Under the pieces are notes generated by a model. That model saw nothing but the letters and a program-made list of their open reading frames with translations, was not told the origin of the DNA and searched no databases. This document shows positions 3,211 through 13,407 of a stretch of 39,760 nucleotides of DNA, one piece after another; position 1 is the first letter of the stretch, and each line of letters begins with the position of its first letter. The translations under genes were made by a program, and so were the position numbers. Source of the DNA: an uncultured Lachnospiraceae bacterium (GTDB lineage Bacteria; Bacillota; Clostridia; Lachnospirales; Lachnospiraceae); NCBI GenBank assembly GCA_905235435.1, contig CAJOLD010000016.1:1-39760 (forward strand), given 5' to 3'.

Positions 3211-3294
3211 TAAATGCAGAGAGAGACGGAGAGCGGAACAGAGATCGTGTCTGGCAAGACAAAAAGACAAATTACATCTTAACGGGAGGTGCGT

Positions 3295-4797
3295 ATGGGT
3301 AATTATCTTGCAGCGCTGGATCTGGGAACACAGAGTGTAAAGACTGTCGTCATGGACGCGCAGGGCCGCCTTCTGGCGGTCAGCCATGAGGGCTACGGAC
3401 TGAATACACCGAAGATCGGTTTTGCGGAGCAGGACCCGGAGGAGTGGTGGCGCGCGGGCGCAAAGACCATCCGCGAGGCCGTATCGAAGGCCGGGATCGC
3501 CCCGGAGGAGATCGCGGGCTTCGGTTTTTCGGGGCAGATGCACGGCATGGTGGCCCTCGATGAGCAGGGCAGGCCGGTCTGTCCGGCGATCATCTGGATG
3601 GATCAGCGCTCCGCGGCGGAGGCGGAGGAGATCCGAGCCGCGGCCGGAGATCTGCTTGAGACCAAACTGCTGAACCGCCCGGTACCGGGCATGATGATCA
3701 GCTCGCTGCTGTGGCTTAAGAAGAATCAGCCCGCGGTCTATGACAGGATCCATACGGTGATGCTGCCCAAGGACTATATCCGCTTCCGCATGACCGGCGA
3801 GATCGGCACCGATCTTGCGGACGGGAGCGCGACCGGCGCGTTTTCCGTGGCGGAGCAGAGATGGTGCACGGAGCTTTTAGAGAGGATCGGCATCCGCACG
3901 GAACTCTTTCCGCCGGCGCGGGAGTGCACGCAGATCGCAGGCACCGTCTCCGCAAAGGGCGCGGAGGAGACCGGGCTTGCAAAGGGGACGAAGGTCGTCT
4001 TCGGATCCGGCGATGCCGCCGCGCAGCTTGTCGGAAACGCGGTCGTAAAAGAGGGGATCATCTCCTGCAATATCGGCACGGCCTCGCAGATCGCCGCCGC
4101 GGTGACGGTTCCCCATTTTGACGCGCAGATGCGCGTGCAGACCTTCTGTCACGCGGTCCCCGGAAGATGGCTCTTCCAGGGGGGCACCCTGAACGGAGGC
4201 AGCACACTGAGCTGGCTGAGGAACCGCGTTCTGCGGGACAGCCGCCCGTTCGCGGATCTGGATATGGAGGCTTCGCAGGTCCCCGCAGGCTCGGAGGGGC
4301 TCATCTTTATCCCCTATCTGGCCGGGGAGCGGACTCCCTACATGGATCCGAAGGCAAAGGGCGTTTATTTCGGCCTTTCGATGAAACATGAGCAGGGGCA
4401 TATGATCCGCGCGACGATGGAGGGCGTCATCTACAATCTCCGCGAGTGCCTGCGGATCATGGATGAGAACGGCGTGCCGAAGGAAAAGATCATTTCCTCC
4501 GGCGGTGCGGCAAAGGGAAAGATCTGGAAGCAGATCCAGGCCGACGTCCTCGAGATGCCCGTCTACACCACCGCCACCGAGGAGGAGGCGTGCCAGGGCG
4601 CGGCCATTCAGGCGGCAGTCGGCGCAGGGATCTACGGGAGCATCGATGAAGCCTGCGATGCCATCGTACGGCTGGACCCGGTCCCGACGGAGCCGATCGC
4701 GGAGAATATCCCCGTATACCGGGAGATGCAGGCGCTCTTCCGGGAGGTCTACCTGGCGGGAACACCGATCTTTCAGAAGCTTCCGGGACAGGATTAA
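3295..4797 (+). CDS. xylB: FGGY-family carbohydrate kinase, xylulokinase-like
   Basis: A 500-residue ATP-dependent sugar kinase of the FGGY family, closest in appearance to xylulokinase; it phosphorylates the terminal hydroxyl of a ketose or polyol. The N-terminal domain opens with ALDLGTQSVKTVVMD (phosphate 1 region) and has GFGFSGQMHGMVALD and IIWMDQRS. The second domain has GSGDAAAQLVGN with the likely catalytic base Asp240, then NIGTASQIA, and ends with SSGGAAKGKIWKQIQADV. Length is normal. ATG at 3295, six bases after GGGAGG, is preferred; the in-frame GTG at 3289 overlaps that ribosome site. The gene has its own promoter and terminator, just upstream of the ABC importer, so it probably acts on the imported sugar. 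Xylulose is only one possible substrate. Confidence 0.8.
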   Translation: MGNYLAALDLGTQSVKTVVMDAQGRLLAVSHEGYGLNTPKIGFAEQDPEEWWRAGAKTIREAVSKAGIAPEEIAGFGFSGQMHGMVALDEQGRPVCPAIIWMDQRSAAEAEEIRAAAGDLLETKLLNRPVPGMMISSLLWLKKNQPAVYDRIHTVMLPKDYIRFRMTGEIGTDLADGSATGAFSVAEQRWCTELLERIGIRTELFPPARECTQIAGTVSAKGAEETGLAKGTKVVFGSGDAAAQLVGNAVVKEGIISCNIGTASQIAAAVTVPHFDAQMRVQTFCHAVPGRWLFQGGTLNGGSTLSWLRNRVLRDSRPFADLDMEASQVPAGSEGLIFIPYLAGERTPYMDPKAKGVYFGLSMKHEQGHMIRATMEGVIYNLRECLRIMDENGVPKEKIISSGGAAKGKIWKQIQADVLEMPVYTTATEEEACQGAAIQAAVGAGIYGSIDEACDAIVRLDPVPTEPIAENIPVYREMQALFREVYLAGTPIFQKLPGQD

Positions 4798-5007: not shown

Positions 5008-6072
5008 ATGAAGAAATCACTTGTGGCACTTCTGGCTGCCGGCGCTCTGGCAGTCTCGGCATTCTCTATGGCAGCTTTCGCAGAGGCGGAGCTTCCGGAG
5101 GATATCGGCGAGTATCATCTCGGTATCTGCGTTCTTTCTCTGGACAATGAGTACTGGGCACAGGAAGCAGCGGCCGCTCAGCTTGCAGCTGAGGCTTACG
5201 GCGTTGAGTCCGAGATCCTTACCTGCAACTCTGACCCCAACGTACAGCTGCAGGGCATGAAGGATTTCATCGCGCAGTACGGCGACAAGGCATGCTTCGT
5301 TGTTGACCCGGCTACCACAGCCAACACCGCCAGCATCGCAGAGCTCTGCGAAGAGTCCGGCAACTATGTGACCATCCTTGCTCACAGGGCTGAAGGCCTG
5401 TTCCCGAAGGATTATCCGCATTTCGTCGTTTCCCTGATGCTGGATGACCTTGCAAACGGCGCTAAGACGGCAGGCGCTCTGTTCGAAGCGATCGGCGGCG
5501 AAGGCCAGGTCGTTGAGATCACCGGCCTCCTTGGCGATGACTCCGCTACGAACCGTCATGCTGCTTTCGAAGCTGCTCTGGCCGACTATCCGGACATCGA
5601 AGTCGTTGACAGCCAGACCGCTTCCTGGGATCAGTCCCAGGCTATGACCCTGACCGAGAACTGGCTGGTACAGTATCCGGATCTGAAAGCGATCTTCACC
5701 TCCGGTGACGCAATGGCTCTCGGCGCGATCGAGGCAATGGCCAACTACGGCGTTTCTCTTCCGATCGTTGGCTGCGACGGCACCAAGGCTGCTCTGGAAG
5801 CCATCCAGAACGGAACCCTGACCGCTACCATCCTGAATGACGCATACAACATCGCCGGCTACGGCGCTGCTTACGCGATCCAGGCTGCCTGCGGCATGCT
5901 TGACCCGACCTCCATCCCGGATGATGAGAGACTGATCTTCGCCGGCACCCAGCTGGTTACCGCTGACAACGTAGATGAGATCTACGAAGGCTGGATCGTA
6001 AACGGCAACCCGGGTTACGACTACTTCGATCTTGACTTCACGGTCGATCATTATCAGGATCCGTCCAAATAA
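5008..6072 (+). CDS. Sugar ABC transporter substrate-binding protein (RbsB type)
   Basis: A 354-residue periplasmic-binding-protein-like sugar receptor of the ribose/galactose type (Peripla_BP_4). The N-terminus is a clear signal peptide: KK, a hydrophobic core, then AAFA before EAELPE. There is no lipobox cysteine, unlike most such proteins of Gram-positive cells. The mature protein shows the two-lobe pattern: LGICVLSLDNEYWAQ opening, MKDFIAQYG..VVDP, GQVVEITG, AIFTSGDAMALGAIEA and PIVGCDGTKAALEAI. AAGGAGG lies seven bases before the ATG. It is first in an operon with permease, ATPase and second permease. The ligand cannot be read from the sequence; the neighbouring kinase suggests a pentose, ketose or polyol. 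Confidence 0.9.
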   Translation: MKKSLVALLAAGALAVSAFSMAAFAEAELPEDIGEYHLGICVLSLDNEYWAQEAAAAQLAAEAYGVESEILTCNSDPNVQLQGMKDFIAQYGDKACFVVDPATTANTASIAELCEESGNYVTILAHRAEGLFPKDYPHFVVSLMLDDLANGAKTAGALFEAIGGEGQVVEITGLLGDDSATNRHAAFEAALADYPDIEVVDSQTASWDQSQAMTLTENWLVQYPDLKAIFTSGDAMALGAIEAMANYGVSLPIVGCDGTKAALEAIQNGTLTATILNDAYNIAGYGAAYAIQAACGMLDPTSIPDDERLIFAGTQLVTADNVDEIYEGWIVNGNPGYDYFDLDFTVDHYQDPSK

Positions 6073-6129: not shown

Positions 6130-6159
6130 ATGTGGGCTTGCCTTTGGGCAAGCCCACAT
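6130..6159 (+). other. Strong hairpin between binding-protein and permease genes
   Basis: A perfect 13-bp stem (6130-6142 with 6147-6159, loop TTTG) sits in the 123-base gap, without a real T-run after it. Such structures typically protect the 3' end of the abundant binding-protein mRNA or cause partial termination, lowering expression of the membrane parts. Confidence 0.75.
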
Positions 6160-6195
6160 TTAAGATACGAACTACTGTTTATGCGAGGACTGAAT

Positions 6196-7221
6196 ATGAA
6201 TAATAAATGGGAAGCGTCCATGGCCTCACTGTCTGTCGGCGAACAGTTCGCCGAAAAAGTGAAAGACAATGCGAGGAAGGACCGAATCAGGAGACTGATG
6301 CCGATCATTCTTCTGGTCGTGATGACAGCGATCGGAGCGATCACCCAGAAGAATTTCTTCAGCGCAAGAAATCTCGTTAATATTCTGTACCAGATGTCGA
6401 TCCCGCTTGTGATATCGGTCAGCCTGATGTTTGTCCTTCTGCTTGGCAGCATCGATCTTTCCATCGAGGGCGTCATGGGCTTTGCCGGTTCCTTCACGGC
6501 GTTTCTTGTGCAGAACCGTACGAATAATAATAATTTTGGTATTTTCGGTATTATCCTTGTCCTTTTGATCTGTACCTGCGTGGGTGCCATCACCGGCTTT
6601 ATCCATACAAAGGGAAGGATCGCTTCTTTCATCACTACGTATGCGGTGGGCCAGATCATGACCGGCGTTGCCGTCCTGGTCTACAATTCCACCCCGATCG
6701 CCGTTACGGAGCCCGCGTTCGTTACGATCTCCCAGAGCCGCCTGTTTGGCATCCCGTACCTTACCCTGATCGCTTTTGCGATCTTTGCGGTCGGCGCGAT
6801 CATTTTGAATTTTACGGCGTTCGGACGCGCTGTTTATGCCATCGGTGACAATGAGACCGCGGCTGCCTCGACGGGAATCAATGTACAGAGGACCAAGATC
6901 AAGGTATTTGCCCTCTCTGCGTTAATGGCAGGCTCCGCCGGCGTCCTGATGTGCATCCGCCTGAAGCTGGGCCAGTCCAGCATCGGCCTGAACCAGATGT
7001 TCCCTGTTGTGACGGCGATCGTCCTCGGCGGCGGTTCTCTGTACGGCGGCAAGGGCGGCGCGCTCTGCTCGTTCGTCGGCGTCCTGGTCTACACAGAGCT
7101 TACGAACTGGCTGACGCTGATGGGCGTTGATACGTACCTCCGCGGCGTTATTCAGGGTATTATCATCATCGTTGCGGTCACGCTTACCATCGAGCGCACC
7201 CGCAAGACGATTTCCAAGTAA
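6196..7221 (+). CDS. Sugar ABC transporter permease 1 (RbsC type)
   Basis: A 341-residue inner-membrane permease of the ribose/xylose class (BPD_transp_2), forming part of the channel for sugar import. A roughly 30-residue polar cytoplasmic N-terminus precedes about eight to ten helices. Typical segments are LGSIDLSIEGVMGFAG, TYAVGQIMTGVAVLVYN, GRAVYAIGDNETAA and VTAIVLGGGSLYGGKGG, the last being the family signature near the C-terminus. ATG at 6196 is chosen because GAGGA lies six bases upstream; earlier in-frame ATGs lie in the intergenic hairpin or lack a ribosome site. It differs clearly from permease 2, so the transporter is probably a heterodimer in the membrane. Confidence 0.9.
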   Translation: MNNKWEASMASLSVGEQFAEKVKDNARKDRIRRLMPIILLVVMTAIGAITQKNFFSARNLVNILYQMSIPLVISVSLMFVLLLGSIDLSIEGVMGFAGSFTAFLVQNRTNNNNFGIFGIILVLLICTCVGAITGFIHTKGRIASFITTYAVGQIMTGVAVLVYNSTPIAVTEPAFVTISQSRLFGIPYLTLIAFAIFAVGAIILNFTAFGRAVYAIGDNETAAASTGINVQRTKIKVFALSALMAGSAGVLMCIRLKLGQSSIGLNQMFPVVTAIVLGGGSLYGGKGGALCSFVGVLVYTELTNWLTLMGVDTYLRGVIQGIIIIVAVTLTIERTRKTISK

Positions 7222-7235
7222 GACGGGAGGAGAAT

Positions 7236-8759
7236 ATGGCGGGACAACTTTTATTTAAAGCGAATGGCGTAGGCAAGACCTACGGAATGAACACCGTTCT
7301 CCGCAACATCGACATGGAAATCTACAGCGGTGAGGTCATCGGCCTGATCGGCGAGAACGGCGCAGGGAAATCGACCCTGATGAAACTGATCGCGGGCGTT
7401 ACCAAGCCCTCCATGGGAAGCATGGAACTGATGGGACAGCCTTATTCCGTAAACTCCATTCTGGAGGCGAATAAGCACGGCATCGGCATGGTCTTCCAGG
7501 AGCAGTCGCTGGTGGCGAACCTGACGATCTCGCAGAATATCTATCTCGGCCGCGAGAAGAAGTATTCTACGATGGGATTTGTAAACTGGGCAAAGATGAA
7601 TGCGGACGCGAAGAAGGCGCTGGACCGCATCGGGATCGATCTTGACGTGACGAAGAAGGTCCGCGACATCGATTTCGCGATGCGCCAGATGGTCGAGATC
7701 GCGAAGGTGCTCGACGTCGTCACGGAGACGGCGAACGGACACGCGATCATCCTCCTGGACGAGCCGACGACGGTCCTCTCGGACGATGAGATCAAGGCTC
7801 TGTTCGAACAGGTCCGCAAGATGAAGGAAGCTGGCAACGCCATCATCTTCATCTCCCACAGACTGGACGAGGTCCTGGAGATCACGGACCGCATCTATGT
7901 ATTCAAGGACGGCGATGAGACGGGCGTGTTCCCGACCGAGGGCGCGGACACGAACATCCTTTACGAGCGCATGGTCGGCCGCGTCGCCACCGGTGAATTC
8001 TATATCGAGAACCGGCAGACGGTCGCGACGGACGAAGTCGTGATGCAGGTGCAGGACCTGAGCGTCTTCGGCGCGTTCAACCATGTTTCCTTCGACCTGC
8101 ACAAGGGCGAAGTGCTGGGCCTCTGCGGTGTTGAGGGATCCGGCAAGGAGGATGTGTGCGCGGTGCTGATCGGCGATATCGCGCCGACCTCCGGCAAGGT
8201 GATCATCGGCGGCCAGGAGAGGACGTTCAAGAATCCCTATAAGGCCAGACACGCCGGCATCCTTTCGGTTCCGAAGGAGCGCCGCGATGAGGGCATGATC
8301 GGTATTCTCTCGATCGAGAACAATATCGTCATCTCCCATATGGAGGCCCTTCAGGACGGGCTCATCCTCTCCGGAAAGAAGACAGAGAGGATCGCGAACG
8401 AATGGGTCAAGAAGGCCGGCGTCAAGTGTGTCGGCATCAAACAGCACATCAACCAGCTCTCCGGCGGCAATGCCCAGAAGGTCATCTTCGCGCGCGCCCT
8501 TGAGAGCCAATGCCCGGTGCTGATCCTGAACCACCCGACCCGTGGCGTGGATGTGGGCTCCAAGGAAGAGATCTACACCCTGATCCGTGAAATGACAGAG
8601 GCAGGCAATTCCATCATCGTGATCGGCGATACGCTGGATGAGTGCATCGGCCTTTCCAGCCGCATCATCGTTCTGAAGGATGGTCTCGTTACCGCCGAGT
8701 TCGACTGCCCTGTCGGGAGCAAGCCGACACAGATGGACATTGTCCAGACAATGATGTAA
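7236..8759 (+). CDS. Sugar ABC transporter ATPase, two nucleotide-binding domains (RbsA type)
   Basis: A 507-residue tandem ATPase that powers sugar uptake. Domain 1 (about 1-245) has an intact Walker A, GENGAGKST, at about 39-47 and Walker B ILLDEPTT with Asp175, followed by IIFISHRL. Its ABC signature is degenerate: the position of LSxGQ reads IDFAMRQMVEIAK. Domain 2 (about 260-507) has the relaxed P-loop CGVEGSGKED and a canonical LSGGNAQKV signature, then LNHPTRGVDVGSKEEI, where the Walker B region has Asn-His in place of the usual Asp-Glu pair. This asymmetry means one composite ATP site is probably catalytic and one mainly structural, as in other RbsA/MglA proteins. It lies 14 bases after permease 1 and has GGGAGG before the ATG. 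Confidence 0.92.
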   Translation: MAGQLLFKANGVGKTYGMNTVLRNIDMEIYSGEVIGLIGENGAGKSTLMKLIAGVTKPSMGSMELMGQPYSVNSILEANKHGIGMVFQEQSLVANLTISQNIYLGREKKYSTMGFVNWAKMNADAKKALDRIGIDLDVTKKVRDIDFAMRQMVEIAKVLDVVTETANGHAIILLDEPTTVLSDDEIKALFEQVRKMKEAGNAIIFISHRLDEVLEITDRIYVFKDGDETGVFPTEGADTNILYERMVGRVATGEFYIENRQTVATDEVVMQVQDLSVFGAFNHVSFDLHKGEVLGLCGVEGSGKEDVCAVLIGDIAPTSGKVIIGGQERTFKNPYKARHAGILSVPKERRDEGMIGILSIENNIVISHMEALQDGLILSGKKTERIANEWVKKAGVKCVGIKQHINQLSGGNAQKVIFARALESQCPVLILNHPTRGVDVGSKEEIYTLIREMTEAGNSIIVIGDTLDECIGLSSRIIVLKDGLVTAEFDCPVGSKPTQMDIVQTMM

Positions 8760-8774: not shown

Positions 8775-9743
8775 ATGGCAGCAGAAAACGGAAAAACGAA
8801 ATTTTCATTACAGTTCTTAAGCAAGTACATGTATCTGCTCAGTATCGTGGTCGTGTTCGCGATCTTTACGATCCTGCAGCCGAATTTCCTCAGTCTGTAC
8901 TCGATCCAGAATATGTGCAGCGAGATCGCGCCGAGACTGATCATGGCATGCGGCCTGACTTTCATCATTTACACGGGCGGCATTGACCTCGGCGCAGGCT
9001 ACATGGTCTCCGCGACCTGCGTTCTGACCGGTCTGTATCTGCCGAAGGCCGGCAACTGGATCATCATCCTGGTCGCGCTCGCCGGCATCTGCATGGGCAC
9101 CCTGAACGGCCTGATCACCACAAAGCTGAAACTGCCGTCGTTCATCGTCACGCTCTGCACGCAGAACTTCTGGAACTATATCGCGCTGACGCTCTGCCCG
9201 GACGGTTCCGTGATCGTCCCGATGAATATGAGAAACGTCACCGAATGGATGACCGCTCCCATTCTCGGGCTCCCGGCGACCTTCTGGCTGTCCCTGGTCG
9301 GACTTGCGGCACTGTATGTATTCCAGCAGTTCACCAAGAACGGCCGCGCGATCTACTCGGTCGGCGCGAACGCGCAGGCGGCGCGCGTGGCGGGCGTCAA
9401 TATCGACGCCGCGCAGATCTCCGCATTTGCGGTCAGCGGCCTTTGCTGCGCCATCGCGGGCATCATGTATGCTTACAAGCTGAGAGCGGCCAACCCGACG
9501 GTCGGCTCCACGCTGCAGCTGTCCTCACTGGCGGCAGTCGCGCTGGGCGGCACCTCCATGGCCGGCGGCTTCGGCTCCGTGACCCGCACGCTCTGCGGCG
9601 TCATCACGATCACGGCGGTCACCTCCGGACTGAATATCCTGAGCGTCAACCCGCTGTGGCAGAACATTATCATCGGTATCATCCTGATCGTGGCAGTCAT
9701 CCTGAACTCCGACAACGGCGACAGGAACCTGATCATCAAATAA
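8775..9743 (+). CDS. Sugar ABC transporter permease 2 (RbsC type)
   Basis: A 322-residue second permease of the same family as permease 1, but clearly divergent. It has a short N-terminus, about eight to ten helices, YTGGIDLGAGYMVSAT (the equivalent of GxIDLS), GRAIYSVGANAQAARVAGVN and SLAAVALGGTSMAGGFGS. The gene follows the ATPase by 15 bases with GGGAGG before the ATG and ends the importer operon. Two unlike permeases flanking one ATPase suggest a heterodimeric channel. Confidence 0.9.
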   Translation: MAAENGKTKFSLQFLSKYMYLLSIVVVFAIFTILQPNFLSLYSIQNMCSEIAPRLIMACGLTFIIYTGGIDLGAGYMVSATCVLTGLYLPKAGNWIIILVALAGICMGTLNGLITTKLKLPSFIVTLCTQNFWNYIALTLCPDGSVIVPMNMRNVTEWMTAPILGLPATFWLSLVGLAALYVFQQFTKNGRAIYSVGANAQAARVAGVNIDAAQISAFAVSGLCCAIAGIMYAYKLRAANPTVGSTLQLSSLAAVALGGTSMAGGFGSVTRTLCGVITITAVTSGLNILSVNPLWQNIIIGIILIVAVILNSDNGDRNLIIK

Positions 9744-9838: not shown

Positions 9839-10681
9839 TCAGAATTTGCTCAGTTCCATCTTCTTTTCAAGATACTCCATCAGAACGCCCTGGAGGTAGG
9901 TCGGGAAGTCGAGCATCCATCTGCCGTTCAGGTTGCGGGTGAATTCGCCCATCGTGTCGAGATAGAGCTGCAGGAACTCGGTGCCGACATTGAACTTGTT
10001 GATGCCGTTTACGAAGGCTTCCTCGAGCTGGTCATTCGGGATGCCGCTGCCGCCGTGGAGAACGAGGGGCGCGTCGGTCGCCGCGTTGATCTCGGCGAGG
10101 CGTTCGATCTGCAGATGCGGGGTCTCTTTGTAGAAACCGTGGGCGCTGCCGATGGCGACCGCGAGAGAGGTGCAGCCGCTGCGCTCGATGAAGTCCGCTG
10201 CGACATCCGGTTTGGTATAGAGATCCAGGTTGCTCTGCTCGGAGGCGGCGGCGAAGCCGACATGGCCGAGCTCGGCCTCGACGGTCACACCGAAGGCGTT
10301 CGCGACATCGACGACCTTGCGGGTATTGGCGATGTTCTCCTCGATCGGAAGAGAGGAGCCGTCATACATGACGCAGGAGAAACCGGCGCGGATGGCGCGG
10401 ATGATGTAGTTGAAATCGTAGCAGTGATCCAGATGCATGCCGATCGGAACGCTGACGGTGGAGGCGACGTCCTTCACAGCGGCCGCGAAGCCTTCCGGAT
10501 CGATCCATCTGTTGAGGGTGTGATGCTCCGGATAGAGCATGACCAGCACGGGCTTGCCGACGTTCTCGGCTGCGTGGCAGACAGAGTAGATCGTGTTGTA
10601 ATCGATCGCGTTGAAAGCGATGACGGAGGTATTTTTTTCAACAGCCATATCGAGGATATCTTTTACGGGTACAAGTGACAT
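9839..10681 (-). CDS. Class II (zinc) ketose-phosphate aldolase, FbaA/GatY/KbaY family
   Basis: A 280-residue zinc aldolase that reversibly cleaves a ketose (phosphate) into a three-carbon ketone unit and an aldehyde. Visible features: GMHLDHCYDF with catalytic Asp85 and zinc ligand His86, DGSSLPIEENI, VEAELGHVG (Glu ligand region), AIGSAHGFYK with His181, LVLHGGSGIP with His209 and the phosphate-binding glycines, and KFNVGTE. All zinc ligands are present, so it should be active. The exact substrate (fructose, tagatose or other) is not fixed; this is not obviously the housekeeping glycolytic enzyme because it is last in an operon with dhaK-like and dhaL genes. AAAGGAG lies about nine bases before the ATG. 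Confidence 0.85.
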   Translation of the reverse strand: MSLVPVKDILDMAVEKNTSVIAFNAIDYNTIYSVCHAAENVGKPVLVMLYPEHHTLNRWIDPEGFAAAVKDVASTVSVPIGMHLDHCYDFNYIIRAIRAGFSCVMYDGSSLPIEENIANTRKVVDVANAFGVTVEAELGHVGFAAASEQSNLDLYTKPDVAADFIERSGCTSLAVAIGSAHGFYKETPHLQIERLAEINAATDAPLVLHGGSGIPNDQLEEAFVNGINKFNVGTEFLQLYLDTMGEFTRNLNGRWMLDFPTYLQGVLMEYLEKKMELSKF

Positions 10682-10771: not shown

Positions 10772-11404
10772 TCAGGCAAAATAATCCGCGAGCGCCCGGA
10801 AGATCAGGCTCGTGGAGACCGCGCCGGAATCCGGATGTCCGACGGTCCGGTCACGGAAGTTTTTGGAGCGCCCGATGCGGGACTGCATGGGCTTCGTCGC
10901 TTCGGCGCCCTGCTCGGCGCCTTCCGCGCCCGCGCGGAAAAATTCGCTCACATCCGCGCCCTCGCGGGCAGCCTGTACCATTGCGTCCCTGGCGGCGGAG
11001 AGGGCGTCGTACATGGTCTTATCCCCCTTCGAGACCTTGCCGCGGCGGGCGATCGCCTGCGTGCCGAGGTCGATGTACCCGGCAAAATCCTGCACGGTGA
11101 CGGGATCCTTGTCCTTCAGGGCCTGGTGCCCTCCGATGAAGAGCGTCCCGTAGATAACGCCCGAGGTGCCGCCCATGACCTTGAGCAGCATCATGCCGGT
11201 CTCCCGCATGAGGGCGTCGGCGGTCTCGAACTGTTTGTCCTGCAGCATGGTGCGGACGGCCGAGAACCCGGTCTTCATCCCGATCCCGTGATCGCCGTCG
11301 CCGATAATGGTGTCCAGGTTCGTCAGCATGCCCTCCGCGTCAATGACGACGTCGCACGCGTGCAGCAGTGCTTCCTGAAGCTGGGCGGTCGTAATCGTAT
11401 TCAT
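10772..11404 (-). CDS. dhaL: DhaL-type ADP/ATP-binding kinase subunit
   Basis: A 210-residue protein of the DAK2/DhaL family, the nucleotide-binding half of dihydroxyacetone kinases. The magnesium-nucleotide motif is intact: NLDTIIGDGDHG with Asp31, Asp36 and Asp38. GGTSGVIYGTLF and GHPDSGAVSTSLIF, the other nucleotide-contacting loops, are also intact. ATG at 11404 has GGAGG nine bases upstream; ATG at 11410, three bases after it, is the alternative (212 residues). It sits between the DhaK-like gene and the aldolase gene, on the same strand. No DhaM (PTS donor) is in the window, so an ATP-dependent or distantly encoded PTS-dependent mode cannot be separated. Confidence 0.85.
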   Translation of the reverse strand: MNTITTAQLQEALLHACDVVIDAEGMLTNLDTIIGDGDHGIGMKTGFSAVRTMLQDKQFETADALMRETGMMLLKVMGGTSGVIYGTLFIGGHQALKDKDPVTVQDFAGYIDLGTQAIARRGKVSKGDKTMYDALSAARDAMVQAAREGADVSEFFRAGAEGAEQGAEATKPMQSRIGRSKNFRDRTVGHPDSGAVSTSLIFRALADYFA

Positions 11405-11449
11405 ACGCATCTACCTCCGTTGGGGCCTGCGGGAAAGAGCGCTGCGGCA

Positions 11450-12418
11450 TCAGAAAATATAGGATGTCGTATTGTACTTTTCCGCCAGATATTTCATCAG
11501 ATCCTTCGGGCAGCACAGCATGGAGACGCCGAAACCGTAGTAATAGTAGTGGCGCCCGAAATGGCCCGGCGTCATGCGGCGGATGGGGACGATCCCTTCC
11601 GCGTGCTTCATCATGGCGTGGGCAAAGATGTAAGTATCCTCGTAATTCGTGACAAAAGGCCGGTTGACCAGTACGCACAGGACCTCGTCCTCCTTCGGGG
11701 ACAGATCCTTAAGGAGGTGGTCGTAGGCCTTCGCGGCGGCGAACTCCAGGGAGAATTCCTCATCGAAGGTGATGCGCGCCGGCTCGCCGGAGATCCCGCG
11801 GCCGAGCTCGACAAGATTCTTCTCCGTGTCGAAGGAGACATTCAGGCTGGCCGTGCGGGTGCGCACCCTGCCGATCACATCGGTCAGCGTGCAAAGATCG
11901 GCACCCTCGCGCGCCATGAGCCCGGCGATGCGGATGCCGAAATGCTGCCCCAGAAGTCCCGTCCGCTCCTCGCGGGGAGCCGAAGGATCCACGGAAAGAC
12001 AGTCATCATTGTAGGTGATCAGACTGCTCTTTAAGCCCTCGATCTCCATGAGCTCCCGGGCCATGTCGTTATTCAGGCAGTCTCCCATAAAGTTGTTGTA
12101 GATCAGGAGATAGCCCGGCTTTGCGTCGATATATTTAGCCGCCTCGTAGATATCATAGGCGCTGGGTGCCGCGTGAAGTCCCCCTACGACGCTGGCGTCC
12201 GCCATGGACTGGCAGGTGACCATCGAGTCCGGGAAGGGAGCTCCGGCCCCGCCGGCGCTGACGATCAGGTTGACCCGGTCGTTCTCGATGGGGACGCGCA
12301 GCAGTGCCCGGTTGTTGAAGGAACCGGGGACCGTGCAGACCCGGTCGGGATGGATGGCGGCCATTGCCTCGGTGAAATCACTGGAGATCGTATCGGAGTT
12401 GCACAGGTTTGTGATCAT
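11450..12418 (-). CDS. Divergent DhaK-like (DAK1) protein lacking the key histidines
   Basis: A 322-residue protein with the DAK1 fold. Alignment from memory with E. coli DhaK: SAGGAGAPF replaces SGGGSGHEP, so His56 becomes Ala60; NNFMGDCLNN matches KNYTGDILNF and keeps the Asp (Asp113); ELGRGISGEP matches EFGVGIHGEP, so the substrate-anchoring His218 becomes Ser210. The C-terminal GFGVSMLCC strand matches GFSITLLKV. Thus the fold and one catalytic acid are kept, but covalent hemiaminal binding of dihydroxyacetone is impossible. The Phe/Tyr-rich RHYYYYGFG segment is also odd. ATG at 12418, eight bases after AAGGAGG, is preferred over 12424 (two bases). First gene of the operon dhaK-like, dhaL, aldolase. 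Function: likely a kinase or binding subunit with a different substrate. Confidence 0.75.
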   Translation of the reverse strand: MITNLCNSDTISSDFTEAMAAIHPDRVCTVPGSFNNRALLRVPIENDRVNLIVSAGGAGAPFPDSMVTCQSMADASVVGGLHAAPSAYDIYEAAKYIDAKPGYLLIYNNFMGDCLNNDMARELMEIEGLKSSLITYNDDCLSVDPSAPREERTGLLGQHFGIRIAGLMAREGADLCTLTDVIGRVRTRTASLNVSFDTEKNLVELGRGISGEPARITFDEEFSLEFAAAKAYDHLLKDLSPKEDEVLCVLVNRPFVTNYEDTYIFAHAMMKHAEGIVPIRRMTPGHFGRHYYYYGFGVSMLCCPKDLMKYLAEKYNTTSYIF

Positions 12419-12471: not shown

Positions 12472-12500
12472 ATGATAGCATCCGCCCCTGTCCGCGTCAA
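12472..12500 (-). promoter_or_regulatory. Predicted promoter of the dhaK-like/dhaL/aldolase operon
   Basis: Minus strand TTGACG (12500-12495), 17 bases, TATCAT (12477-12472). Directly upstream of the -35 the minus strand is almost pure T/A for about 40 bases (12501-12541), like an UP element. Confidence 0.65.
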
Positions 12501-12552
12501 CAAAAAAACAAGAAAAAACAATTTAAAAAAATAAAATGAAATCCCAGAATTG

Positions 12553-12581
12553 TTGACAAAATGGGTGATTTTTAATATACT
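12553..12581 (+). promoter_or_regulatory. Predicted promoter of the DeoR-family regulator gene
   Basis: TTGACA (12553-12558), 17 bases, TATACT (12576-12581). The expected transcription start is near 12588, only a few bases before the ATG at 12592. Confidence 0.7.
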
Positions 12582-12591
12582 GATTTTGCAT

Positions 12592-13407
12592 ATGAACAAA
12601 AACGAAAGCATACGAAAGGACAAAAACAAGACTGTGTTTACATCGGAAAGGCAGAAACTGATAGAAGCCTACATACTTGAGCGCGGATCGGCGACCGTGC
12701 AGGAACTGTCGGGGAGGTTTCAGGTCTCGGCGGTAACGATAAGAAAAGATCTTGACGAGCTGGAGAAGGGCGATCTGGTCCAGCGCACGCACGGCGGCGC
12801 CGTATCGAAATATAAGTCTGCGCAGGGGGGACAGTTCCAGACGCTGACGGACCGGAACAGAGAAGAGAAGCAGCGGATCGGAAAGAAGGCGGTGAGTTTT
12901 ATAGAGAACGGGGACACGATTTTTCTGGACGCCTCCACGACCGCCCATGTGTTTGCGTCGCTTCTTGCGGAGGCGGGCTTTACGGGACTCACGGTGATCA
13001 CGACCTCCCTGTATGTCGCCCAGCTCCTCCTGGCGCAGGGCATCCGCGTCATCATGATCGGAGGGGAGATGAACCGGAACATCAACGCCGCCGAGGGGCC
13101 GGCCGCCCTGGAGCAGATCTCCGGGATGAGCGCCGACAAGGGATTCATCGGCGTAAACGGGATCGATAAGCAGTTCGGCTTTTCCGTGGACAGCCTGGAG
13201 GAGGCGGCGATCAAGCAGCGGAGCATCTGCCAGTCCTCCCGCAGGACCTTCATCCTTGCCGACTATACGAAGTTCAACCGCCGGTATATGGCCAGGATCT
13301 TCGGCACGGAAGAATGCGCCGCGGGCTGCCTGATCACAGACGGCCCGCGGGAGAATATCGATTATGGATTTCTGAAAAATAAAATGAAGCTTGTCTTTGC
13401 GGAGTGA
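12592..13407 (+). CDS. DeoR/GlpR-family transcriptional regulator
   Basis: A sugar-phosphate-responsive repressor, 271 residues from ATG 12592. The N-terminal winged helix-turn-helix reads ERQKLIEAYILERG, VQELSGRFQVSAVTIRKDLD and LVQRTHGGAV, which are hallmark DeoR segments. The C-terminal sensor domain, related to ribose-5-phosphate isomerase, has DASTTAHVFASLL, VITTSLYVAQLL, GGEMNR and KGFIGVNGID. The start is uncertain: ATG 12592 has no ribosome site and nearly coincides with the predicted transcript start, while GTG 12634 has GAAAGGA 13 bases upstream and gives the more usual short N-terminus (257 residues). Divergent from the dhaK-like operon, so it most likely controls that operon and perhaps the importer and kinase. 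Confidence 0.9.
   Translation: MNKNESIRKDKNKTVFTSERQKLIEAYILERGSATVQELSGRFQVSAVTIRKDLDELEKGDLVQRTHGGAVSKYKSAQGGQFQTLTDRNREEKQRIGKKAVSFIENGDTIFLDASTTAHVFASLLAEAGFTGLTVITTSLYVAQLLLAQGIRVIMIGGEMNRNINAAEGPAALEQISGMSADKGFIGVNGIDKQFGFSVDSLEEAAIKQRSICQSSRRTFILADYTKFNRRYMARIFGTEECAAGCLITDGPRENIDYGFLKNKMKLVFAE

Follow-up and report, generated by a model that had tools for sequence, protein, structure and literature searches.

The window analysed here, the 39,760-nucleotide contig CAJOLD010000016.1 of an uncultured Lachnospiraceae bacterium (assembly GCA_905235435.1), encodes a DhaK-like protein in which the catalytic aspartate of dihydroxyacetone kinases is kept and the histidine that anchors their substrate is replaced by serine. 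A covalent hemiaminal bond to this histidine is the textbook hallmark of dihydroxyacetone kinases. We propose, with a probability of roughly 45%, that the DhaK-like protein and the adjacent DhaL form a kinase that would use ATP to phosphorylate the C1 hydroxyl of a non-covalently bound ketose and would feed a ketose-1-phosphate aldolase encoded beside them, a reading drawn from sequence comparison. It builds on the observed substitutions in the DhaK-like protein and their conservation, an intact DhaL motif, the absence of EIIA-Man matches from the source genome, a conserved gene set and the loss of an Arg/Lys residue in the aldolase.

Loss of both histidines in a DhaK-like protein

The DhaK-like protein belongs to the DAK1 family. 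It scores 129.6 bits against Pfam Dak1 (PF02733; gathering cut-off 31.4) over residues 18–317, and Dak1 is its sole Pfam domain at E values up to 0.001, with no DegV domain (FakB/DegV) found. It is not DhaK proper: it falls short of the DhaK equivalog model TIGR02363 (109.4 bits; cut-off 406.25) and lacks the covalent histidine. Against the DhaQ coactivator model TIGR02362 it scores 62.4 bits (cut-off 413.25). In alignments to E. coli DhaK, Ser210 occupies the position of His218, the covalent substrate histidine, Gly59 that of His56 and Asn108 that of Lys104, and the catalytic aspartate is retained (Asp113, equivalent to E. coli Asp109). The DAK1 scaffold, Asp113 and the exchange of His218 for Ser210 thus stand as an earlier note on this DNA had described them. 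That note had also equated Ala60 with His56; the histidine is indeed lost, but the aligned residue is Gly59, and Ala60 aligns with Glu57. The predicted single-chain structure has a predicted local distance difference test score (pLDDT) of 92.8, and its top fold matches include the DhaQ structures 2iu4 and 2iu6; also in the fold-match list is entry 3pnq, by its title E. coli DhaK H56N complexed with Dha.

The gene is the sole DAK1 gene found in the source genome (97.9% complete). The neighbouring DhaL scores 168.1 bits against TIGR02365 (cut-off 138.3) and its metal-binding aspartate motif, IGDGDHG, is intact, in agreement with the earlier note. Two DAK2 domains occur in the genome, one in this DhaL and the other in a 540-amino-acid open frame of FakA size, and the DhaL is the sole stand-alone DAK2 protein. 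EIIA-Man (DhaM, PF03610) has no match in the genome, the control search being positive in 5 of 14 known genomes. ATP is therefore the likely phosphate donor, and a DhaM-dependent donor was rejected on the absence of these matches. As the earlier note had reasoned, a DAK1 subunit that lacks the anchoring histidine but has an intact DhaL as partner needs another way of binding its substrate; the protein seems to work as a DhaK–DhaL kinase does, probably on a substrate other than dihydroxyacetone.

The substitutions are conserved among relatives. A search with the single sequence returned 38 relatives and a profile search 198 at E values up to 1e-40, of which the best 120 were used; the fragments P0030 and P0031 were left out of the residue counts. 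All 123 complete relatives have Ser at 218 and Asp at 109, and none has His at 56. With genome rows added, Ser218, Asp109 and Asn at the Lys104 position are each found in 130 of 130 aligned Ser-type rows (the window's included) and His56 in none. Because the query was itself Ser-type and these rows are its best-scoring relatives, the counts show conservation inside the clade. Orthologues in three loci (L001, L002 and L003), 74–84% identical, carry the same residue classes.

Another histidine filling the His218 position, which the earlier note had named as a ground for abandoning its reading along with close homologues that retain the histidine, was considered and rejected, the position in space being judged by alignment. 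Neither alignment (34 and 30 invariant columns) has an invariant His or Lys, no His is near-invariant, and no close homologue carries the histidine. Among the matches listed, every Ser-type member with a source name is called dihydroxyacetone kinase or dihydroxyacetone kinase-like, so this automatic substrate annotation is probably wrong. In a literature search that left subscription papers mostly uncovered, we found no description of a DAK1/DhaK protein without the substrate histidine or of a DhaK–DhaL ketose kinase.

Two His-less groups within the DAK1 family

Among 299 genomes of the bacterial family, 72 had a DAK1 match (at most seven candidates were scored per genome, so some may be missed). 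The residue census combines the DAK1 matches listed by this survey with class-level and named loci. Its 126 genome rows (128 if the double entry of E. coli is counted) divide into 111 with His56, Asp109 and His218, 8 Ser-type rows, 6 Asn-type rows with Asn at 218 and Asn, Cys or Leu at 56, and one fragment with His218. All 14 rows without His218 also lack His56, all 111 His218 rows readable at both sites have His56, and no row readable at both sites has lost just one histidine. Asp109 is present in every row. Ten further stretches beyond the census have His wherever the site is readable. In E. coli DhaK, as Shi and colleagues are reported to have proposed in 2011, His56 serves the bond to His218, and Asp109, the base, serves phosphoryl transfer. 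This division of labour predicts the observed pattern, in which both histidines vanish together and the aspartate never does.

Both His-less types are uncommon, with Ser-type genes in 5 of the 299 genomes (G000, G226, G121, G038 and G170) and Asn-type genes in 6 (G005, G038, G148, G178, G179 and G225). No further Ser-type locus was found by a class-wide search (391 genomes, E values up to 1e-60), by a phylum-wide search (398 genomes, E values up to 1e-68; the source genome was the sole match) or among viral contigs. Of the nine other class loci, eight are His/His rows; the ninth is the fragment L049, which retains His218. In L049, from a class-level genome, a His-type dhaK carries an in-frame stop. 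A plasmid collection gave 568 matching records, all below 60% identity.

We left the trait columns out of a tree of 149 rows, in which 22 listed Ser-type proteins represented the others and L049 (237 amino acids) was not included. Branches with one type of row on one side had Shimodaira–Hasegawa-like approximate likelihood-ratio test (SH-aLRT) values of 94 for His, 99 for Ser and 89 for Asn rows. A single change divides His-less from His-bearing rows, both in this tree and in a second one with all columns. As the tree is unrooted, gain and loss of the histidine pair are indistinguishable. The conserved Ser-type clade, the second, Asn-type, clade and the replacement of Lys104 go beyond what the earlier note had claimed.

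The gene set around Ser-type dhaK

Genomic context is available for seven Ser-type loci; most of the counted Ser-type proteins are known without context. In the window, dhaL and the class II aldolase gene lie downstream of the dhaK-like gene on the same strand, a DeoR-family regulator is divergent, and a set of ATP-binding cassette (ABC) transporter genes converges from the far side (Table 1). This gene set is kept in the three loci with 74–84% identical DhaK (L001/G226, L002 and L003), and also in L036, L039 and L040, where DhaK identity is far lower. The run of dhaK, dhaL and aldolase with DeoR is found in 6 of the 7 loci, the contig of the seventh (L040) stopping after dhaL. Every relative compared has a DeoR match within the locus. 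ABC genes are present in 6 of 7, the exception being L002, whose 4.3 kb of sequence are too few to reveal a transporter. The transporter genes of G226 are on a second contig, on which 320 bases come before the end of the last permease, and the dhaK contig ends inside the aldolase, which is consistent with the gene order of the window.

Table 1. Features of the dhaK-like locus in the window
Feature	Position	Strand	Evidence
Xylulokinase-like FGGY kinase	3289..4797	+	TIGR01312, 462.8 bits (cut-off 380.25)
Ribose/allose-type ABC substrate-binding protein	5008..6072	+	Pfam Peripla_BP_4, 126.6 bits; orthologue in locus L003
ABC permease 1	6130..7221	+	Orthologues in dhaK-like loci
ABC sugar-type ATPase	7236..8759	+	Sugar ATPases head the NCBIfam matches, with scores under the cut-offs
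ABC permease 2, convergent with the aldolase gene	8775..9743	+	Orthologues in dhaK-like loci
Class II aldolase (PF01116), predicted ketose-1-phosphate aldolase	9839..10681	-	Pfam, 257.9 bits; residue alignment
DhaL-like nucleotide-binding subunit (DAK2)	10772..11410	-	TIGR02365; alignment to E. coli DhaL
DhaK-like subunit (DAK1), complete open frame of 322 amino acids read from 12418 to 11450	11450..12418	-	Pfam Dak1 score, alignments, structure model, fold matches
Putative sigma-70-like promoter of the dhaK-like operon (TTGACG, 17-base spacer, TATCAT)	12472..12500	-	Sequence
DeoR-family regulator, divergent from the dhaK-like gene	12550..13407	+	Pfam DeoRC and HTH_DeoR

Across the census, the 1.5 kb around the DAK1 gene contain an aldolase in 7 of 14 His-less and 4 of 111 His rows (P about 1e-5), a DeoR gene in 7 of 14 and 2 of 111 (P about 1e-6) and a FruK-like PfkB gene in 4 of 14 and 0 of 111 (P about 1e-4); as the rows are related, these P values are a guide only. 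For dhaL the corresponding counts are 14 of 14 and 104 of 111. Upstream of the operon, TTGAC and ATGCTAT.AT are identical in all four aligned regions. A comparison aimed at an operator common to the kinase and transporter promoters showed short TTTCGTTTT-like repeats upstream of the dhaK-like gene, with none in the window's transporter promoter.

In one genome (G121; L036 10358-12329), two different Ser-type dhaK genes, 46% and 38% identical to that of the window, stand in tandem, followed by one dhaL and an aldolase, and may possibly encode a heteromeric DhaK. About 6 kb from this tandem is a His-type dhaK with dhaL and deoC.

The six Asn-type loci (L132, L133, L134, L135, L136 and L137) all contain dhaL and a FruK-like PfkB gene, to which L132 adds a PfkA-like gene. 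Four of these loci have a full class II aldolase and L133 has a partial match to one; ABC sugar-transporter genes are present in five of the six. The presence of two kinases, and the retention of the bisphosphate residue described below in most of the aldolases, suggest a ketose bisphosphate pathway. Between dhaL and PfkB, two of these loci have an MtaA/CmuA-like methyltransferase-family gene (L134 6479-7723; L136 9256-10506, the latter assigned by sequence likeness).

The aldolase and its kinase partners

The window aldolase scores below every NCBIfam cut-off listed, and we examined its residues. Arg259 and Arg280 of the Giardia fructose bisphosphate aldolase bind fructose 1,6-bisphosphate (PMC6692403). 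At the Arg259 position, set by motif spacing (N253-V254-x-x-x-x-R259) and not by alignment of the Giardia chain, the window aldolase has Leu, and Arg/Lys is absent from all 15 aldolases of the same type. By contrast, 7 of 8 comparator class II aldolases, taken from the same loci and from Asn-type loci, have Arg or Lys there. The part of the substrate held by Arg259 and Arg280 is presumably the 6-phosphate. E. coli YdjI, which we take to be a ketose-1-phosphate aldolase, also lacks Arg/Lys at this position, the alignment placing Cys there.

A family-wide search for the aldolase gave 22 matches, 18 of them without a Ser-type dhaK, and context was studied in 10 of these loci; the context counts leave out 8 of the 22 matches (G005:C28 twice, G215, G107, G272, G271, G102 and G110). 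A same-strand sugar kinase is present in all ten loci that have the window-type aldolase and no dhaK match, and none of the ten has a DhaK or DhaL match. The kinase is of the ADP_PFK_GK type, of about 400 amino acids and adjoining the aldolase, in seven, and a PfkB kinase in three, adjoining in two and three genes off in L176. A second PfkB match, on the opposite strand, is found in L168. Five of the ten loci have a D-lyxose isomerase gene and two a fucose-isomerase-like gene. Pfam was used to assign the 3 PfkB kinases, 2 of the 7 kinases of the ADP_PFK_GK type and 1 of the 5 D-lyxose isomerases; the others were assigned by similarity.

The window-type aldolase thus travels with a sugar kinase. 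In the Ser-type loci no kinase but the DhaK–DhaL pair recurs at that place, and the pair appears to fill the sugar-kinase slot. The type of the aldolase, its lost Arg/Lys and its kinase partners together offer a clue to the substrate of the Ser-type DhaK. As a separate observation, a divergent ADP_PFK_GK-type kinase accompanies the window-type aldolase in all 7 of the operons L169, L171-L175 and L177, which also hold transporter-like genes and, in 5 of the 7, a D-lyxose isomerase; these operons possibly represent a ketose-1-phosphate route with a bacterial ADP-PFK/GK-family kinase.

Proposed function

We suggest the following sequence of events. A sugar would be imported through the ribose-type ABC transporter. 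A ketose, a pentulose or hexulose and probably in the form of a cyclic hemiketal, would dock in the pocket of the DhaK-like protein, where Ser210, Asn108 and Gly59 replace His218, Lys104 and His56. The proposed base, Asp113, would activate the C1 hydroxyl, the counterpart of the hydroxyl phosphorylated in dihydroxyacetone, and this hydroxyl would receive the gamma-phosphate of DhaL-bound ATP. The aldolase would then split the ketose-1-phosphate into dihydroxyacetone phosphate and an aldehyde, and DeoR may regulate the gene set. The earlier note had suggested a sugar phosphate or an acid as substrate; another mode of binding is upheld, but the neighbouring genes point to a free ketose instead.

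Several observations weigh against this proposal. The neighbourhood counts are over related rows and are not independent, and over the same 1.5-kb range ABC genes show no significant enrichment (4 of 14 His-less and 18 of 111 His rows). The gene set of the window includes no isomerase, so a sugar taken up would have to be a ketose from the start or be isomerised elsewhere. Cys302 is near-invariant in the second alignment, which makes another covalent mode formally possible. As regards the aldolase, the Arg259 position depends on the motif spacing noted above, and the one comparator without Arg/Lys there, the first copy in L135, lies beside an Asn-type dhaK. Finally, other sugar kinases are encoded nearby: in the two genomes of the genus (that of the window and G226) the xylulokinase-like FGGY gene immediately precedes the transporter, L003 lacks it there and instead has a ROK regulator and, past the transporter, an allose-kinase-like gene, G121 has a ribokinase-like gene immediately after the aldolase, and L039 has FGGY and FruK-like genes and a second aldolase downstream.

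A wider claim, which we hold still more tentatively, is that two or more conserved lineages of the DAK family, the Ser-type and the Asn-type among them, would act as ketose kinases without the covalent histidine bond. The Ser-type enzymes would be 1-kinases feeding a ketose-1-phosphate aldolase, the Asn-type enzymes would work beside a phosphofructokinase-like kinase and a bisphosphate aldolase, and the covalent grip on trioses would characterise a single branch instead of the family, having arisen or disappeared one time. A clade in which both histidines and the active-site lysine are replaced and the aspartate is kept would amount to a natural experiment on the residues for binding as against those for phosphoryl transfer. 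If these proteins are ketose kinases, they would represent a new activity in the DAK family and a new type of kinase in bacterial ketose-1-phosphate pathways; if a larger sugar is held without a covalent bond, not every enzyme of the family would need the covalent grip.

Alternative explanations

Human fructose breakdown uses a trio of kinase, aldolase and triokinase, and a similar arrangement is a serious rival, even if we consider it rather unlikely. Here the other kinase, perhaps the xylulokinase-like FGGY protein, would make the ketose phosphate, the aldolase would cleave it, and the DhaK–DhaL pair would phosphorylate the resulting aldehyde (glyceraldehyde, glycolaldehyde or similar), bound non-covalently as a hydrate. 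The extra sugar kinases near the operon in the window, G226, G121, L039 and L003 fit this scheme, as does human triokinase, a DAK-family enzyme that phosphorylates glyceraldehyde (PMC6429413). However, triokinase grips its substrate through the very histidine missing here (PMC6429413). Moreover, the extra kinases differ in family from one Ser-type locus to the next, and none was matched in the L002 or L040 loci. The ten dhaK-less aldolase loci, for their part, have no DhaK or DhaL match, and one of them, L168, has a second PfkB match, on the opposite strand.

It is improbable that the pair acts on a non-carbonyl substrate, either a polyol or an acid converted to an acyl phosphate. The model for this would be the FakB/DegV proteins, which have a related fold and a DAK2 kinase partner; the DhaK-like protein matches just Dak1 in Pfam.

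A regulator or sensor, the role of the DhaK paralogue DhaQ in Lactococcus, is more doubtful still. The DhaQ structures among the top fold matches, and the two tandem Ser-type copies in G121, one of which could be non-catalytic, speak for it. Against it stand a DhaQ model score far under the cut-off, the catalytic aspartate in all 130 clade rows, a single genomic DAK1 gene adjoining its DhaL, the sole stand-alone DAK2 protein of the genome, and a locus that has its own DeoR; the suggestion of a sensor or regulator in the earlier note is therefore not borne out. A decayed or mis-sequenced ordinary dhaK has a negligible chance; nothing was found in its favour, and it is ruled out by the full open frame, the orthologues with the same residue classes, the 130 of 130 rows with Ser and Asp and the SH-aLRT value of 99% for the clade.

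Comparison with known systems

The DhaK subunits of the phosphotransferase system (PTS; E. coli 1oi2 and 3pnl, L. lactis 3ct4) are about 19–24% identical to the DhaK-like protein and have His56, Lys104 and His218, where the latter has Gly, Asn and Ser. Unlike them, it comes from a genome without a DhaM domain, and its gene neighbours are aldolase, ABC and DeoR genes. The ATP-dependent dihydroxyacetone kinase of C. freundii (1un8, 1un9) and the human triokinase TKFC likewise combine DAK1 and DAK2, and ATP is the likely donor here too. In these enzymes, however, one chain holds both domains and His220 or His221 forms a covalent bond to the triose (PMC6429413), whereas the proteins described here are separate subunits without the histidine. 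DhaQ of L. lactis (2iu4, 2iu6) shares the DhaK-like fold; in contrast to it, the protein of the window has a catalytic aspartate and a dedicated DhaL and scores far below the TIGR02362 cut-off. In the system of FakB/DegV and FakA (DAK2), FakB binds fatty acids, whereas Dak1 is the only Pfam match here. A parallel to the aldolase is E. coli YdjI (6ofu), a class II enzyme that is likewise without Arg/Lys at the Arg259 position. Its operon combines a PfkB-type sugar kinase, the aldolase and a DeoR regulator, presumably for ketose-1-phosphate substrates; in the window, DhaK and DhaL stand where that operon has its PfkB-type kinase.
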